DNA of 24,343 nt. Origin: a virus. Of the stretch, positions 3,039 through 24,343 are shown piece after piece. The DNA is taken from positions 1 to 24,343 of the IMG/VR virus record IMGVR_UViG_3300021964_000518; one strand, 5' to 3'. The position numbers were made by a program, and so were the translations under genes. Under the pieces are notes generated by a model. It was not told the origin of the DNA and made no database searches. It was given only the letters and a program-made list of their open reading frames with translations. Numbering within the stretch: the stretch's first letter is position 1; each line of letters starts with the position of its first letter.

Positions 3039-3181
3039 TGGCTAAAGCACAAACAGTAATCTCTTACGAGAGAGGACCAAAGAAACGAACATCTATTGGG
3101 GATAGTGCAAGAACTAGACCAAAGAACAAGAACAAGAGACGATTATTCAAAAGAAGTGTAGGTCAAGGTAAGAGAAGATAA
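3038..3181 (+). CDS. Small basic protein of marine T4-like phage type
   Basis: The protein has 47 residues and is rich in Arg and Lys throughout, with 'SYERGPKKRTSIGDSARTRP' in the first half and KNKNKRRLFKRS and GQGKRR in the second. There is no hydrophobic segment. I recall similar Arg/Lys-rich short proteins with 'KTSIG...RPKNK' in marine myophages, without known function. It is coupled by TAATG to the Cys-rich gene before it and to the PAAR gene after it. A virion or nucleic-acid-binding role is a guess. Confidence 0.6.
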   Translation: MAKAQTVISYERGPKKRTSIGDSARTRPKNKNKRRLFKRSVGQGKRR

Positions 3182-3477
3182 TGGGCTCTGCTGTCACACG
3201 ATCAGGACTAGATACACATGTAGGTCACGCAAGTCCTACACCTAATCCGTTTCACAAAACTGCATATACTGGTGGTTCTAGTAATGTGAAAACGAATGGT
3301 GCAAATACTATTCGTATTGGTGATTCTACATCATGTGGCGATCCTGCAACTGGTGGATCATCTACTGTATTTGTAAATGGTAAAGGAGTTCATAGACAAG
3401 GTGACGCAACAGGTGGTCATGGGTCTTGGATACCTAATGCATCTGCCTCAGGTTCTTCTAATGTTTTTGCGGGCTAA
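3181..3477 (+). CDS. PAAR-domain baseplate spike tip (T4 gp5.4-like)
   Basis: PAAR proteins form the sharp cone at the end of the central baseplate spike and help pierce the outer membrane. This 98-residue protein matches T4 gp5.4 in size (97). It shows the repeated Gly/Ser/Asn turns and the likely zinc ligands: His13, His16 or His25 near the N-terminus, then Cys52, His71 and His80. Typical PAAR phrases are 'TRSGLDTHVGHA' and 'VFVNGKGVHRQGDATGGHG'. The start overlaps the preceding stop by one base. The gene lies directly before gp25, consistent with a baseplate block. Confidence 0.88.
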   Translation: MGSAVTRSGLDTHVGHASPTPNPFHKTAYTGGSSNVKTNGANTIRIGDSTSCGDPATGGSSTVFVNGKGVHRQGDATGGHGSWIPNASASGSSNVFAG

Positions 3478-3940: not shown

Positions 3941-5791
3941 ATGGTAAAAAGATTAGAAGTTACAGATTTAGATTTTGATGGTATCAAAAATAATCTTAAA
4001 GTTTTTTTAAAACAACAAGATCAATTAACAGATTATGATTTTGAAGGCTCAACCATGTCTACCTTGTTAGATGTTCTAGCATATAACACTCACTACAACG
4101 CTGTCTATGCTAATGTTCTGGCGAATGAAATGTTTTTAGATAGTGCAGATTTAAGAAACAGTATTGTCTCACACGCCAAACATGTGGGGTATACTCCAAG
4201 AAGTGCAACATCACCTGTTGCTTTTTTAAATGTGACTGTTAACAATGCAACTGGTTCTACTCTAACTGCAGCTAGAGGCACAACCTTTACTACAAGTGTT
4301 GATGGCACAACTTATAATTACATTGTCAAAGATGCCACTACGATTACACCAACAGATGGTGTTTATACTTTTTCTAGTTTACCTGTTTATGAAGGAACAC
4401 TTGTCACAAACAAATACACAGTGGATACATCAAATGCAGATCAAAGATTTTTAATTAAAAATAATTTAGCAGACACAACAACTTTAAAAGTTACAGTACA
4501 AAATAGTTCAACAGATTCAACATCCAACACTTATACTTTATCAACTGATTTAGCAGATGTGATATCAACATCAAAAGTTTATTATCTTGAAGGTGCTGAA
4601 GATCAACAATATGAAGTTCAGTTTGGTGATGGTGTACTTGGTGCTGCATTATCAACTGGTAACATAGTAACACTATCTTATATCGTTACTAATGCTGAAG
4701 AAAGTAACGGAGCGAGTTCATTTAGTTTGTCAGGAAATATTGGTGGATTCTCTAATGTGACAATTACTACTGCAACTAATTCAGCAAACGGTGCTCAACC
4801 AGAAACTCCAGAGAGTATTCGTTTCAATGCACCAAGACAATATGCTTCACAAAATAGAACAGTCACCGCAAAAGATTATGAGAGTAAAGTAAAATCAATT
4901 TTTACAAATGCACAATCAGTTCAAGTGTGGGGAGGAGAAGATAACGACACACCTGTTTATGGTCGTGTTTATATTTCAATCAAACCTGTAACTGGTGCAA
5001 CACTTACAGAAGCAAAAAAGACTGATATCATTACACAATTAAAAGATTTTAATGTTGCAAGTGTGACACCTGTTATACAAGATCCTGAAACAACATCTTT
5101 ACAATTAAATGTAAATGTTAAGTATGATGCAAAGGCAACAACAAAAACAACTGACAGTATTAAGTCTTTAGTATCTTCAGCAATTACAACATTTAACACA
5201 AACAATCTAGGACAGTTTGATGGATTGTTTAGACACTCTAAATTTATTGAAACAATTAACAAAGTAGATACTGCAATACTATCTAATATTACAACTGTTA
5301 AAATGCACAAATCATTTACAGCCACAACATCAGGTGCAACAACTTACACAATCAAATACAACAACGCATTTTATAATCCACACTCAGGACACAATGCAAG
5401 TGCTGGTGGTGTATTAGTTTCATCAGGATTTAAAATTAATGGTGATACAACTAACGAATATTTTTTAGATGAAGATGGTGCAGGTAATGTTAGACTTTAT
5501 TATCTTGTTGGTCAAACAAGAACATACACCAATAATACTTTAGGTACAATAGATTACACAAACGGAACAATCACCTTAAACTCTTTATTCATTACAGAGG
5601 TTTCAAATGTTGATGGTGCAACATCTACTGCTGTAAGATTAACAGTCATACCAAATTCTGTGGACATCATACCTGTAAGAAATCAAGTATTAGAAATAGA
5701 TGAAACAAACACAACGGTGACTGTATCTGCTGATGATTATGATACAACTTCAGGTATAGGCTATACCGCAACATCAAGTTATGCTTCATAG
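3941..5791 (+). CDS. gp6: Baseplate wedge protein gp6
   Basis: gp6 forms the inner ring of the baseplate wedge with gp7 and gp53 and carries a Baseplate_J-like fold. At 616 residues it is close to T4 gp6 (660). The N-terminus 'LEVTDLDFDGIKNNLKVFL' followed by 'YDFEGSTMSTLLDVLAYNTHYNAVYANVLANEMFL' (about 32-66) is highly characteristic of the gp6 family. A middle segment (about 290-330, RFNAPRQYASQNRTVTAKDYES) is also typical. About residues 507-513 read FLDEDGA, an acidic motif shared with the next gene. It follows gp25 by two bases and precedes the gp7-position gene by three. Confidence 0.92.
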   Translation: MVKRLEVTDLDFDGIKNNLKVFLKQQDQLTDYDFEGSTMSTLLDVLAYNTHYNAVYANVLANEMFLDSADLRNSIVSHAKHVGYTPRSATSPVAFLNVTVNNATGSTLTAARGTTFTTSVDGTTYNYIVKDATTITPTDGVYTFSSLPVYEGTLVTNKYTVDTSNADQRFLIKNNLADTTTLKVTVQNSSTDSTSNTYTLSTDLADVISTSKVYYLEGAEDQQYEVQFGDGVLGAALSTGNIVTLSYIVTNAEESNGASSFSLSGNIGGFSNVTITTATNSANGAQPETPESIRFNAPRQYASQNRTVTAKDYESKVKSIFTNAQSVQVWGGEDNDTPVYGRVYISIKPVTGATLTEAKKTDIITQLKDFNVASVTPVIQDPETTSLQLNVNVKYDAKATTKTTDSIKSLVSSAITTFNTNNLGQFDGLFRHSKFIETINKVDTAILSNITTVKMHKSFTATTSGATTYTIKYNNAFYNPHSGHNASAGGVLVSSGFKINGDTTNEYFLDEDGAGNVRLYYLVGQTRTYTNNTLGTIDYTNGTITLNSLFITEVSNVDGATSTAVRLTVIPNSVDIIPVRNQVLEIDETNTTVTVSADDYDTTSGIGYTATSSYAS

Positions 5792-20454: not shown

Positions 20455-21786
20455 ATGGGTACAAGATTAATTGGTAAAGCAAAATCGACATTAAAGACAG
20501 CTGGTACTAAAACATTTGGTGCTAAAACTGAAAACGATTTATTAGCATTATTTCAAAATGCTGTAACAGCAGGTTCTATTACTGGTGTTTACAGTATGCA
20601 AGAAGTATATCAAGATGAATTAAATGATGATTGGATTGCTGATCAAAAAGCAACCACCGCTAGAGCTCAAACAGGTGGAACAATGACTTTAAATTCAGTA
20701 TCATTAGGTAGTTATGATTATACTTATGTTGGTGGTAATCAAACTGTATCATCTTTTACAAATTCAGATTATTTTACAACAACAACAGATAGTAACAGTG
20801 CATTAGTTTATATTGATGGTGACTTCACTATTGATTCTGGTCAAGTATTTGTTCCATCAAATAGAAAACTATTTACAGCGATATATGTTGCTGGTAATTT
20901 AACTGTCAACGGAAAAATTGTTATGGATAGTCGAGGTGCTAATCACAGTCCTGCTGGTTCTCCTCGTTCATCTGCTAACATTAAATTAATTAGTCCTGGA
21001 ACATATTCAGGTGTTCCTGACCCACAAATACCTTCAAGCGGAGGTTCTGCAGGTTCAGGTACTACTGCTTCACCTGGCACTATCAATGCTCAAGGAACAG
21101 CGGGTGCCGCTGGTTCTGCCGGAGGCACAGGTGGTGGCGGTGGTGGTAATGCTACTATTGGTGGTTCTACTTACGGTGGTGGACCTTCTACTGGTGGTAA
21201 TGGTTCAGCAGGAACAAGTTTCTCAGGTGGTACTGGAGGCGGTGGTACTGCTTCACTAACATCATCTCCCTCTCCAAATACTAATGGTGGAAATGCTACA
21301 TCTAATGGAGGTGCTGGCGGAAATTCTGCTCCTTCACCAACTCACTATACAAGTGGAGGAGGTGGAGGTAATCCTGGTGGTTTTGGAAGAAATGCTGGGG
21401 GAGCTGACTCACCAAATGCTTACGGATTAGATGGTACTGGTGGTGTTTTAGTAATTTATGTTGTAGGTAATTATACAGGTTCAGGTGAAGTTTCCGCTGA
21501 TGGTAGAAATATGTTTTATAGACAATTTCAAACAGGTTTTGGTGGTAGTGTAGGTGGAGGTTCTGTAACAATCTTTGTTGGTGGAACTGATAGTGGTCCA
21601 ACACCAACTGCTGCTGGCGGACAAGGACAAGGTGGTCCATCAGATACAGGTGCTATACCTGCTACTTCATTCTACGACAATTCAATAAATCCTGCTGGTT
21701 TTGGTGTAGGTGGTCATGGTAATTCATCAACAGGTGGATACGGTGGCGCTGGAACAGCAAGAAAATTAAGTTTAACAAGTAGTTAA
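20455..21786 (+). CDS. Glycine-rich putative receptor-binding adhesin
   Basis: The protein has 443 residues. About 1-110 is an ordinary folded attachment region. About 115-185 shows beta strands like a solenoid (YIDGDFTIDSG..., IYVAGNLTVNGKIV). Residues about 195-330 and 360-435 are very Gly-rich, with GGTGGGGGG, GGTGGGG and GGGGGNPGGFG runs separated by Ser/Thr/Asn/Pro loops. Such Gly-rich stretches are known from T4-family gp38 adhesins, where they pack as polyglycine-II helices and present variable loops to the host receptor. The last gene position in the fibre series fits a tip protein. It is larger than gp38 (about 260), so homology is not claimed. AGGA precedes the start. Confidence 0.75.
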   Translation: MGTRLIGKAKSTLKTAGTKTFGAKTENDLLALFQNAVTAGSITGVYSMQEVYQDELNDDWIADQKATTARAQTGGTMTLNSVSLGSYDYTYVGGNQTVSSFTNSDYFTTTTDSNSALVYIDGDFTIDSGQVFVPSNRKLFTAIYVAGNLTVNGKIVMDSRGANHSPAGSPRSSANIKLISPGTYSGVPDPQIPSSGGSAGSGTTASPGTINAQGTAGAAGSAGGTGGGGGGNATIGGSTYGGGPSTGGNGSAGTSFSGGTGGGGTASLTSSPSPNTNGGNATSNGGAGGNSAPSPTHYTSGGGGGNPGGFGRNAGGADSPNAYGLDGTGGVLVIYVVGNYTGSGEVSADGRNMFYRQFQTGFGGSVGGGSVTIFVGGTDSGPTPTAAGGQGQGGPSDTGAIPATSFYDNSINPAGFGVGGHGNSSTGGYGGAGTARKLSLTSS

Positions 21787-21788
21787 TC

Positions 21789-22208
21789 ATGGCAGTAACA
21801 TTAGATACAACAAAGAAATATTTCTTTCACAATATTTACGGTGATGCTCAAACATTATTAGATACATTACCTTCAGATGTTGTGGCAGTTCCTGCTGGGT
21901 GGTCACCTGAAGCAGAAACAAATAGAGAAGAACACTCAACAGCATTAGGACAATCACCAAATGCTTATCCAACAATATTTTATTATAGAGATGAATTTGA
22001 TATGACAATCACAACAACAGATGTAGAAGATCATCCAAATGCTAGTGCGATTATTACAGAGGATGGTAATGAAGTTTTTAAATATGCTACAACTATGGTT
22101 GCTGGTTGGTACCAATGTCGTATCTATAAAATTTTTGAGAAACCATGGAGTTGGACTCAGATAAACACAGAAATACAAAGACGAATTGATAATAATATTG
22201 TGTCATAA
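21789..22208 (+). CDS. Conserved-type phage protein behind the adhesin, unknown function
   Basis: The protein has 139 residues. It starts MAVTLDTTKKYFFHNIYGDAQ and has a Trp-rich C-terminal region (AGWYQCRIYKIFEKPWSWTQ) ending in a charged helix (INTEIQRRIDNN). No signal, membrane segment or catalytic motif is visible. It starts two bases after the adhesin stop, which suggests a role in adhesin assembly or attachment, as for fibre chaperones placed directly downstream of fibres. That is position-based inference. Its stop codon forms part of a late promoter motif. Confidence 0.7.
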   Translation: MAVTLDTTKKYFFHNIYGDAQTLLDTLPSDVVAVPAGWSPEAETNREEHSTALGQSPNAYPTIFYYRDEFDMTITTTDVEDHPNASAIITEDGNEVFKYATTMVAGWYQCRIYKIFEKPWSWTQINTEIQRRIDNNIVS

Positions 22209-22211
22209 ATA
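22204..22211 (+). promoter_or_regulatory. T4-type late promoter motif (CATAAATA) ahead of the cupin unit
   Basis: One mismatch to TATAAATA, fused to the preceding TAA stop. The predicted start near 22217 leaves GAAAGG as ribosome site for the cupin gene at 22235. Confidence 0.55.
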
Positions 22212-22234
22212 ATTTAAAAATTGAAAGGTATATC

Positions 22235-22648
22235 ATGGCTAGTTTTGATACTAAACACATTTTTTTCGATAAAGAAAATCCAAACACACCCGGAACAACA
22301 ATCTCATATGTAAGTAATACATTTACAAGAACAATGTATTTCAAAAAAGCAGGTGATAAAGAAATGGGTCACTCACACAATTACGATCATGTTACATTAT
22401 TAGCATTAGGTAAAATTAAAATAACTGTTGGTGACAAAGAAACAGAATTTACAGCACCTAAAAATATTCTTATAAAGAAAAATGTCAATCACATTGTAGA
22501 AGCATTAGAAGATGGTACATTGTGTTATTGTGTTCACCCTCTACATGATAGAAACAATCCTGAATATATTTTAGATCCTGATTCTATACCTGAGCAAAGT
22601 AGTCATGCATTACCTAGACAATATGTTCCTATAAACAATGATGAGTAA
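22235..22648 (+). CDS. Cupin-fold protein
   Basis: The protein has 137 residues with a single small cupin barrel. Motif 1 is HSHNYDH at residues 46-52 (candidate ligands His46, His48 and His52) followed by 'VTLLALGKIKITVGDKE'. Motif 2 is 'PKNILIKKNVNHIVEALEDGTLCYCVHPL' with His86, then Cys97, Cys99 and His101. The set suggests a bound metal such as iron, nickel or zinc. Cupins range from dioxygenases and isomerases to simple binding proteins, so the reaction cannot be assigned. It begins the three-gene unit with a 2OG oxygenase-like and a TusA-like gene, and its last 11 bases overlap the next frame. GAAAGG precedes the ATG. Confidence 0.8.
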   Translation: MASFDTKHIFFDKENPNTPGTTISYVSNTFTRTMYFKKAGDKEMGHSHNYDHVTLLALGKIKITVGDKETEFTAPKNILIKKNVNHIVEALEDGTLCYCVHPLHDRNNPEYILDPDSIPEQSSHALPRQYVPINNDE

Positions 22649-23441
22649 TTTTTATTCTACTTGCATAGATAATTTTTTAGAAGATCCTGATAAACTCATT
22701 GATTTTTCAAAAAAATTACCATGGAAACCTACATCGGGAAACTTTCCCGGAACTAGAACACCTGCATTTCATGATATAAATGAAGATTTAAATACATACT
22801 TATCTTTAAAAATATTATCTGTTTATTTTGATTTTAACATACAAGAAAATATAGATAATGTCACTTGGGATAAATCTCAAATATATTTTCAAAAAGTAAA
22901 AAAATTTTCGAATAAGGTTAAAAGCTCTTTTAACAAAGGATGGATTCATAAAGATAATGAACAATTAGCATTTGTCATTTACCTTAATAAAAATATTCCT
23001 GATGTCGCAGGCACAAATGTTTACACATTAAAAGAAGATGTTGATGAAGATTATTTAAGAGAAAAAATGAAATGGAATATGGTGTTAAAACATTGGTTCT
23101 ACACAGGTCAAAATGTAAAAGAAAATGAGTATAAAAACTCAATAGAAGAAATAGAAAACCATTTTGATGAATCTATTTTATTTAAACCTCGATACAATAG
23201 GTTGGTTGTTTATGGTCAAGATTTTCATTCTGCTAATAATTATTGGATGCCAAATGAAGAAGAACGATTCTTTATAGTAGGGTTTATGAATGGAATTAAA
23301 TGTAAAAATTTTCCATTACAGCGAATAAAAAATAAAGTTATAGATAAGAACATAAAGAAAAATTTAGTAATTAAAAAATTGTTAAGTCCACAAAGAATGA
23401 TAAAGGATAATGTATATGATAAAATTGCATTTCGAAAGTAA
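22638..23441 (+). CDS. 2-oxoglutarate/Fe(II)-dependent oxygenase-like protein
   Basis: The protein has 267 residues. The double-stranded beta-helix pattern is recognisable: HKD at 104-106 gives the HxD iron ligands, followed by 'AFVIYLN'. His197 in 'RLVVYGQDFHSANNYW' gives the distal His, and Arg210 in 'ERFFIVGFMN' is placed to bind 2-oxoglutarate. The family resembles prolyl-hydroxylase-type tail-region oxygenases of marine myophages. About 220-267 is an unusually Lys-rich tail (KNKVIDKNIKKNLVIKK). Substrate unknown; fibre or host proteins are candidates. It overlaps the cupin frame by 11 bases (ATG at 22638, alternative 22641) and the TusA-like frame by 26. Confidence 0.8.
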   Translation: MMSNFYSTCIDNFLEDPDKLIDFSKKLPWKPTSGNFPGTRTPAFHDINEDLNTYLSLKILSVYFDFNIQENIDNVTWDKSQIYFQKVKKFSNKVKSSFNKGWIHKDNEQLAFVIYLNKNIPDVAGTNVYTLKEDVDEDYLREKMKWNMVLKHWFYTGQNVKENEYKNSIEEIENHFDESILFKPRYNRLVVYGQDFHSANNYWMPNEEERFFIVGFMNGIKCKNFPLQRIKNKVIDKNIKKNLVIKKLLSPQRMIKDNVYDKIAFRK

Positions 23442-23643
23442 ACATTGTCCTGATATTGTTTTAGATTTACAGTCAAAAGTAAAAACATTAACAGAATCAG
23501 ATGACATAACTTTATATACGACAGATCCATTATCACCAATTGATGTAAAGTATCTTTGTTATACGAGAAAAGATTTAGAATTTATTTCTCATACAAAAGA
23601 TAATGAAACATATACAATCAATTTAAAGTATTATTATACATAA
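23416..23643 (+). CDS. TusA-like sulfurtransferase-family small protein
   Basis: From the preferred ATG at 23416 it has 75 residues, close to E. coli TusA (81). The N-terminus has Cys-Pro at 11-12 (KHCPD) followed by a helix. Then comes 'ITLYTTDPLSPIDVKYLCY', matching the TusA core '.l.v..tDp....Di...c', and a last strand 'YTINLKY'. TusA passes sulfur on the Cys of its Cys-Pro motif to tRNA thiolation, molybdopterin or other routes. The second Pro of the usual CPxP is Ile14, not Pro. An ATG at 23410 is only three bases from AGG; the 23416 start has nine. The frame overlaps the oxygenase end. Function inferred from pattern only. Confidence 0.7.
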   Translation: MIKLHFESKHCPDIVLDLQSKVKTLTESDDITLYTTDPLSPIDVKYLCYTRKDLEFISHTKDNETYTINLKYYYT

Positions 23644-23646
23644 ATA
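23639..23646 (+). promoter_or_regulatory. T4-type late promoter motif (CATAAATA)
   Basis: The motif is fused to the stop codon of the TusA-like gene and lies 59 bases before the next gene, which has AAAGGAG as ribosome site. It ends the cupin unit and begins the next. Confidence 0.5.
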
Positions 23647-23705: not shown

Positions 23706-24212
23706 ATGGCACATTTTGCTAAACTAGGGGTGAACGGTAAAGTAATTGCTGTTCATGTTTTAGATAATAATAAAATGTTGAACGCTGATAGTCAAGAAGA
23801 TGAATCAGTAGGTCAACAAGAATTAGAAAGAATCCACGGATGGCCTGCGGCATTATGGATTCAAACATCATACAACACTAACAGAAATACTCACTCATCA
23901 GGTGATAACTCTCAAGCATTTAGAGGTAACTATGCAGGTATAGGTTTTACTTGGGATGAAGATAACGAAATCTTTTGGGCTAAACAACCATATGCAAGTT
24001 GGACAAAGAACACTTCAACAGCAACATGGGATGCACCAATCACATATCCAAGTGTAGAAACTTATCTTGATGATAGTTCAACATCACAACCGTGGAGTAT
24101 ATATTGGGATGAAACCGCATATCAAGCAAACAACTCAAAAGGTTGGGAAGCAACTAAAGTAGATGCTTCAGATGTTTACGAGTGGAATGGTTCTGCTTGG
24201 ATTGCACAATAA
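23706..24212 (+). CDS. Marine-phage conserved protein of 'MAHFAKLG' type
   Basis: The protein has 168 residues. The start MAHFAKLGVNGKVIAVHVLDN, the middle 'WIQTSYNTNRNTHSSGD' and 'GNYAGIGFTWDEDNEIFWAKQPYASW' match a family I recall as common in cyanophage and other marine myophage genomes, often near structural genes. Function is not established as far as I know. The C-terminal 50 residues have several Trp residues (PWSIYWDETAYQ, GWEAT, EWNGSAW), a pattern often seen in surface-binding modules. The ATG is preceded by AAAGGAGAG. Likely late-expressed and possibly a virion component. Confidence 0.75.
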   Translation: MAHFAKLGVNGKVIAVHVLDNNKMLNADSQEDESVGQQELERIHGWPAALWIQTSYNTNRNTHSSGDNSQAFRGNYAGIGFTWDEDNEIFWAKQPYASWTKNTSTATWDAPITYPSVETYLDDSSTSQPWSIYWDETAYQANNSKGWEATKVDASDVYEWNGSAWIAQ

Positions 24213-24230: not shown

Positions 24231-24343
24231 ATGCAAAAAAATACATTAAGTGAAAAATTTGTACTGACTGGTACGGTTAACAAAGTATCACATTTAAATC
24301 CAAGACAAATACAAAATCATTGTTTATCTAATTTTTCATTAGA
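24231..24343 (+). CDS. N-terminal start of an unrecognised protein (3' truncated by the window)
   Basis: An open frame begins at ATG 24231 and continues to the end of the window, giving 37 residues (MQKNTLSEKFVLTGTVNKVS...). There is no clear ribosome site upstream, and the 18 bases since the last stop hold no promoter motif, so the exact start is uncertain. No motif allows a function. Confidence 0.5.
   Translation, partial: MQKNTLSEKFVLTGTVNKVSHLNPRQIQNHCLSNFSL

Follow-up and report, generated by a model that had tools for sequence, protein, structure and literature searches.

The 2-oxoglutarate (2OG)-Fe(II) oxygenases of marine phages (PHROG 61 and others), often several per genome, have EGLN3-like folds (PMC12774648). 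The cyanophage genes have been proposed to modulate NtcA and 2OG levels or to act in DNA repair (PMC3037559), and in pelagiphages such genes are co-located with ferrochelatases (PMC9599517). Protein prolyl hydroxylases with a comparable fold include OGFOD1, PHD2, P. putida P4H and the vCPH of the chlorella virus PBCV-1. Solved Cupin_2 metal cupins comprise 9bwf (a cellulose oxidative enzyme) and 5fpx/5fpz (a pectin degradation protein). TusA sulfur carriers belong to PF01206, and TusA of phages has been reported near sulfur genes (PMC8190135).

Here we analysed three overlapping genes, encoding a cupin, a 2OG-Fe(II) oxygenase and a TusA-like protein, in a virus record of 24,343 bases (the whole stretch is called the window below). 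The best explanation, to which we give a probability of about 0.5, is that they form a small, mosaic late accessory segment between the fibre genes and the phrog_7759 gene, at the head of the region that in related phages holds a 2OG-Fe(II) oxygenase island, with modification of fibre proteins as the leading candidate function.

Results

Gene layout and late promoter motifs

Among 2,369 records matching the baseplate protein of the window (3941-5788), the best was Pelagibacter phage HTVC008M (74.9% identity), and the window was therefore assigned to an HTVC008M-like, T4-type phage. The three-gene unit sits 3' of the fibre region and 5' of the phrog_7759 gene (Table 1). The Gly-rich gene upstream has a comparable gene in HTVC008M, gp065 (Gly_rich_2 domain), which lies behind the fibres of that phage. 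The last gene begins in the final 113 bases of the window, and the residues encoded there look, by eye, like the start of the 167/185-aa gene found 3' of phrog_7759 in related loci. Elsewhere in the window, a protein at 214-1083 looks porin-like by eye, and in HTVC008M a gene annotated as an outer membrane porin lies 5' of the same baseplate genes; a small protein at 3181-3477 resembles, also by eye, a PAAR spike tip.

Table 1. Positions of the three-gene unit and its surroundings in the window
Feature	Position	Strand	Remarks
Gly-rich fibre-region gene upstream of the unit	20455..21786	+	ORF
139-aa gene immediately 5' of the cupin gene	21789..22208	+	C-terminus RIDNNIVS, untagged
TATAAATA, T4-type late-promoter motif, 5' of the cupin gene	22204..22211	+	motif scan
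Four-His cupin gene	22235..22648	+	137 aa; HxHx3Hx6G (H46, H48, H52) plus H86; C99 and H101 also invariant
DUF6445 / phrog_1644 2OG-Fe(II) oxygenase gene	22638..23441	+	267 aa; prolyl-hydroxylase-like predicted fold; H104, D106, H197, R210
TusA-like small protein gene	23410..23643	+	77 aa; start 23410 or 23416; C13-P14 and TDP retained; CPxP without its second Pro
TATAAATA, T4-type late-promoter motif, 5' of the phrog_7759 gene	23639..23646	+	motif scan
phrog_7759 protein gene	23706..24212	+	heads the oxygenase island in related phages
Next gene, start only (MQKNTLSEKFVLTGTVNKVSHLNP...)	24231..24343	+	cut by the contig end

The original prediction described three genes with 11- and 26-base overlaps between two late promoter motifs. 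In the ORF list, the overlap of the cupin and DUF6445 genes is exactly 11 bases, and that of the DUF6445 and TusA-like genes is 32 bases, or 26 if the latter starts at its second ATG (23416). Both bounding motifs were recovered at 22204 and 23639. The shorter string ATAAATA occurs 13 times on the + strand versus 0 on the - strand, and 7 of the 13 copies lie 8-70 bases 5' of a gene start (expected 0.46, maximum 3 in 200 dinucleotide shuffles). Because of the late motifs, the strand bias and pre-gene placement of ATAAATA, together with the overlaps, the three genes likely form one late unit.

The four-His cupin and its neighbours

Cupin_2 (PF07883) matched the window cupin with an E value of 3.6e-4 (20.6 bits, under the 27.2 cut-off) and matched 19 of 20 members of its family (E up to 0.01). 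An alignment scan of viral contigs gave 244 confirmed stretches, of which 80 were kept. In 40 nonredundant members H46, H48, D51, H52, H86, C99 and H101 are invariant; the His-rich cupin type assigned earlier was upheld. Compared with the cupin motif HxHx3-4Ex6G and the second-motif His, the spacing and both His sites are present. Solved cupins were retrieved with the window cupin both by sequence and by profile; the barrel motifs and metal His residues of 9bwf and 5fpx/5fpz align with it, whereas the family differs from these metal cupins in having His52 at the canonical Glu position (40/40) and in its fibre-gene context. By these residues, gene 1 is a predicted metal-binding cupin with an unusual four-His site. 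No relative was confirmed in genome contigs by the alignment scan, and neither the window cupin nor family member L066 had a match in the phage-record collection.

The cupin family is usually found 3' of fibre-type or small fibre-associated genes, with long proteins of fibre type (by eye) and small proteins matching tail-fibre phrogs as frequent neighbours. A 2OG-type gene directly adjoins 13 of the 40 nonredundant cupins; 11 of these 13 belong to one cluster (cluster 18), whose 2OG identity rests on motifs because its Pfam match is weak (Asp_Arg_Hydrox, E 0.021). No description of a link between these cupins and tail fibres was found in a limited search of the literature on cupins with tail fibres or viral contigs. 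A weak match to phrog_2954 'ferrochelatase' (E 0.18) was seen for one 2OG-type protein next to a cupin, and HTVC008M gp068, also called 'ferrochelatase' (L174:29309-29950), matched no Pfam family at E 0.5; the label may merit checking.

A C-terminal tag on small fibre-associated proteins

A tag, [IV]Pxx[IV]L or GAQTL, is the usual C-terminus of the small fibre-associated protein encoded 5' of the cupins (for example in the IMG/VR loci L035:4729-5351, L066:4744-5351 and L019:4714-5805, all directly 5' of a cupin gene). With the scanned pattern [ILMVF]P[VTAGSQ][TSEQVADN], followed by no more than five residues to the C-terminus, the tag was found in 21 of 39 genes directly 5' of a cupin versus 7 of 308 other genes (Fisher 2e-17), a significance that is inflated because the earliest cupin loci served to define the pattern and the sequences are not independent of one another by descent. 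Three of the 7 other genes are small genes of the same kind, separated from the cupin by a 2OG-type gene; the tag is also present with such a gene in between (L073, L061, L038). In one small-protein family, an IP-type tag or GAQTL ends 32 of 37 members followed by a cupin versus 0 of 14 not so followed (hand count, partly non-independent), and among the loci new to the scan of this family the tag was present in 7/11 with a cupin and 0/12 without. About half of the 14 cupin-less members end, by eye, in a tail-assembly-chaperone-like region, which in the one case tested (L019) matches PF16778 below the cut-off. L019 and L036 each encode, further along, a paralogue with such a region at its end instead of the tag. 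GAQTL goes with the 92-93-aa cupin form (8/8) and IPxxxL with full-length cupins, and tagged proteins fall into several clusters that stay separate from each other. That the tag is a mere artefact of gene overlap was considered and rejected: although overlap may restrict the final codon, all four Pro codons (CCT, CCA, CCC and CCG) are used, so that conservation is at the level of the residue, and the tag persists where a 2OG-type gene intervenes. The window cupin is without a tagged partner, its upstream gene ending in RIDNNIVS.

We propose, tentatively, that uncultivated phages carry a fibre-side module in which a dedicated four-His cupin, in many cases beside a 2OG-type oxygenase, would bind or modify a tagged small fibre-associated protein; the window cupin would then be a T4-like branch with its tagged partner lost or replaced and DUF6445 as the oxygenase. 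This proposal is possible but on balance doubtful.

The DUF6445 oxygenase

Gene 2 matched DUF6445 (PF20043) at 48.8 bits (E 1.1e-12), above the cut-off of 24. The oxygenase motif HxD...H...R originally assigned to it was confirmed, as H104, D106, H197 and R210 are invariant in 83 DUF6445 sequences and constitute an HxD...H iron triad with an Arg after the distal His; by its position, R210 is presumably the 2OG-anchoring Arg. The AF2 model (pLDDT 89) has 2OG oxygenases with the double-stranded beta-helix fold as its top PDB matches, the best being OGFOD1 (Z 12.8), P. putida P4H (12.4), PHD2 (12.2) and vCPH (11.7). These matches span 151-165 residues and share a common fold over roughly residues 1-224 of gene 2, at only 13-18% identity. 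Gene 2 is therefore, according to the model, a 2OG-Fe(II) oxygenase of prolyl-hydroxylase type by predicted fold, although prolyl specificity does not follow from similarity of fold. The structure prediction suggested for the unit was informative for gene 2; for gene 3, the single-sequence model (pLDDT 50.8) was uninformative as to the two-layer alpha/beta fold of TusA. The PHROG 61-type oxygenases likewise have a prolyl-hydroxylase-like fold and occur in marine phages, whereas DUF6445/phrog_1644 is a separate sequence family labelled as a coat protein, and the window gene differs from them in overlapping cupin and TusA-like genes.

The label of phrog_1644, 'minor coat protein', would favour a structural role, in which DUF6445 is a minor virion protein and the cupin a non-catalytic fibre adhesin or cap; relatives of the cupin also have weak matches to the phrogs 'short tail fiber protein' and 'tail fiber adhesin'. 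Against this stand the metal-site residues, fully conserved in the two families, the predicted oxygenase fold, and the absence of the phrase 'minor coat' from the one cyanophage proteomics paper searched. We consider structural roles improbable, and the label is likely misleading.

Relatives of DUF6445 in viral contigs were found only with an alignment, and a single-protein scan confirmed none. The cyanophage gene is located either in a slot from gp55 to gp47 or close to phoH, with genes of replication and late transcription, not fibres, around it. Outside the gp55-gp47 slot it occurs in oxygenase islands, in several cases beside fibre-type genes or phrog_7759 (L097, L099, L101, L110, L123, L166).

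The TusA-like protein and co-occurrence of the three genes

Gene 3 matched PF01206 at E 1.5e-5 (25.2 bits, under the 28.6 cut-off) and NCBIfam PRK00299 at 19.9 bits (cut-off 78). In an alignment with four bacterial TusA homologues (16-24% identity), C13, P14, TDP and D45 are kept, but CPxP reads CPDI, the second Pro being replaced by Ile. Of the Cys-Pro TusA-like carrier first described, the C13-P14 and TDP elements stood; since CPxP is lost and both matches are below curated cut-offs, the protein is called TusA-like only. No relative was confirmed in viral contigs, either by a single-protein scan or with the alignment of bacterial homologues, and nothing ties this gene to fibre modification.

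Conserved co-occurrence of the three genes had been named as a check on the original prediction, and its absence as a refutation; the outcome was the refuting one, since no second locus was found within the sensitivity of the searches. Of the loci retrieved with the cupin and DUF6445 scans, only the window has both genes together; no cupin lies within three genes of phrog_7759 in the phrog_7759 loci; and no PF01206 (TusA-type) gene was present in 50 related records, many being fragments. Many records are fragmentary and the nearest records of the window may be left out, so the absence of the trio holds within these searches. A dedicated pathway of three enzymes, combining oxidation and sulfur transfer on one substrate, as originally read, agrees with the overlapping genes between two late motifs; it is weakened by the trio not being found together elsewhere and by the TusA-like protein below curated cut-offs and without CPxP, and we regard it as very unlikely. 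The best reading is that the trio is a mosaic and not a dedicated three-step pathway.

The fibre-side oxygenase island

In 49 of 57 nonredundant loci a 2OG-type gene lies within three genes of phrog_7759 (a raw count), and in 45 of these 49 the gene belongs to a cluster matching Pfam 2OG-FeII_Oxy_3 at 6.5e-15. Typically in the 57 loci, phrog_7759 precedes a 167-aa gene, which is followed by one to four oxygenases. In HTVC008M, four 2OG genes lie 3' of the fibre genes. This phage also has 13 PF13640-type matches, and since 2OG oxygenases are abundant in such phages generally, the island could be a hot spot of gene gain. The trio is best read as a probable addition at the head of such an island. 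Runs of 2OG-type genes were seen 3' of phrog_7759 in most of the loci L238-L317. At L210:2785-3384 and L212:2785-3387, a small fibre-associated protein with a different C-terminal tail is followed directly by a ~200-aa protein resembling a 2OG oxygenase by eye.

Discussion

Modification of fibres by these genes, raised in the original prediction, is plausible. It gains indirect support because DUF6445, other 2OG-type oxygenases and the cupin family each recur beside fibre-region genes, and because the fold of DUF6445 is closest to protein prolyl hydroxylases. Late in infection, the DUF6445 oxygenase would use O2 and 2-oxoglutarate to hydroxylate a side chain, perhaps of proline, in a fibre or fibre-associated protein, and the cupin may act on, or dock to, a fibre-associated protein via its metal pocket. 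As a probable independent passenger, the TusA-like protein may carry sulfur on Cys13 for thiolation of host tRNA or a cofactor.

The missing tagged partner of the window cupin, the position of cyanophage DUF6445 away from fibres, and an island that may be a hot spot count against this explanation. An alternative is that the genes serve host metabolism, the oxygenase and cupin acting on small molecules or on 2-oxoglutarate balance and the TusA-like protein feeding host thiolation, with the place behind the fibres being an insertion hot spot. The roles proposed for cyanophage 2OG genes, the ferrochelatase neighbours in pelagiphages, the phage TusA near sulfur genes, and 9bwf and 5fpx/5fpz as the nearest solved cupins by sequence are consistent with such functions; the DUF6445 fold nearest to protein hydroxylases, the recurrent fibre adjacency and the C-terminal tag on most small proteins 5' of cupins argue against them. 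We hold host metabolism to be a less probable, though serious, alternative to fibre modification.

The role of the many 2OG oxygenases in marine T4-like phages is debated (2OG balance, DNA repair). The tag on small fibre-associated proteins is a by-product of this analysis that may matter more than the trio. The 2OG genes recurring beside fibre-region genes and the tag-linked cupin family point to a testable class of substrate, the fibre proteins of the phage itself; if this is true, phages would chemically mature their own host-recognition apparatus.
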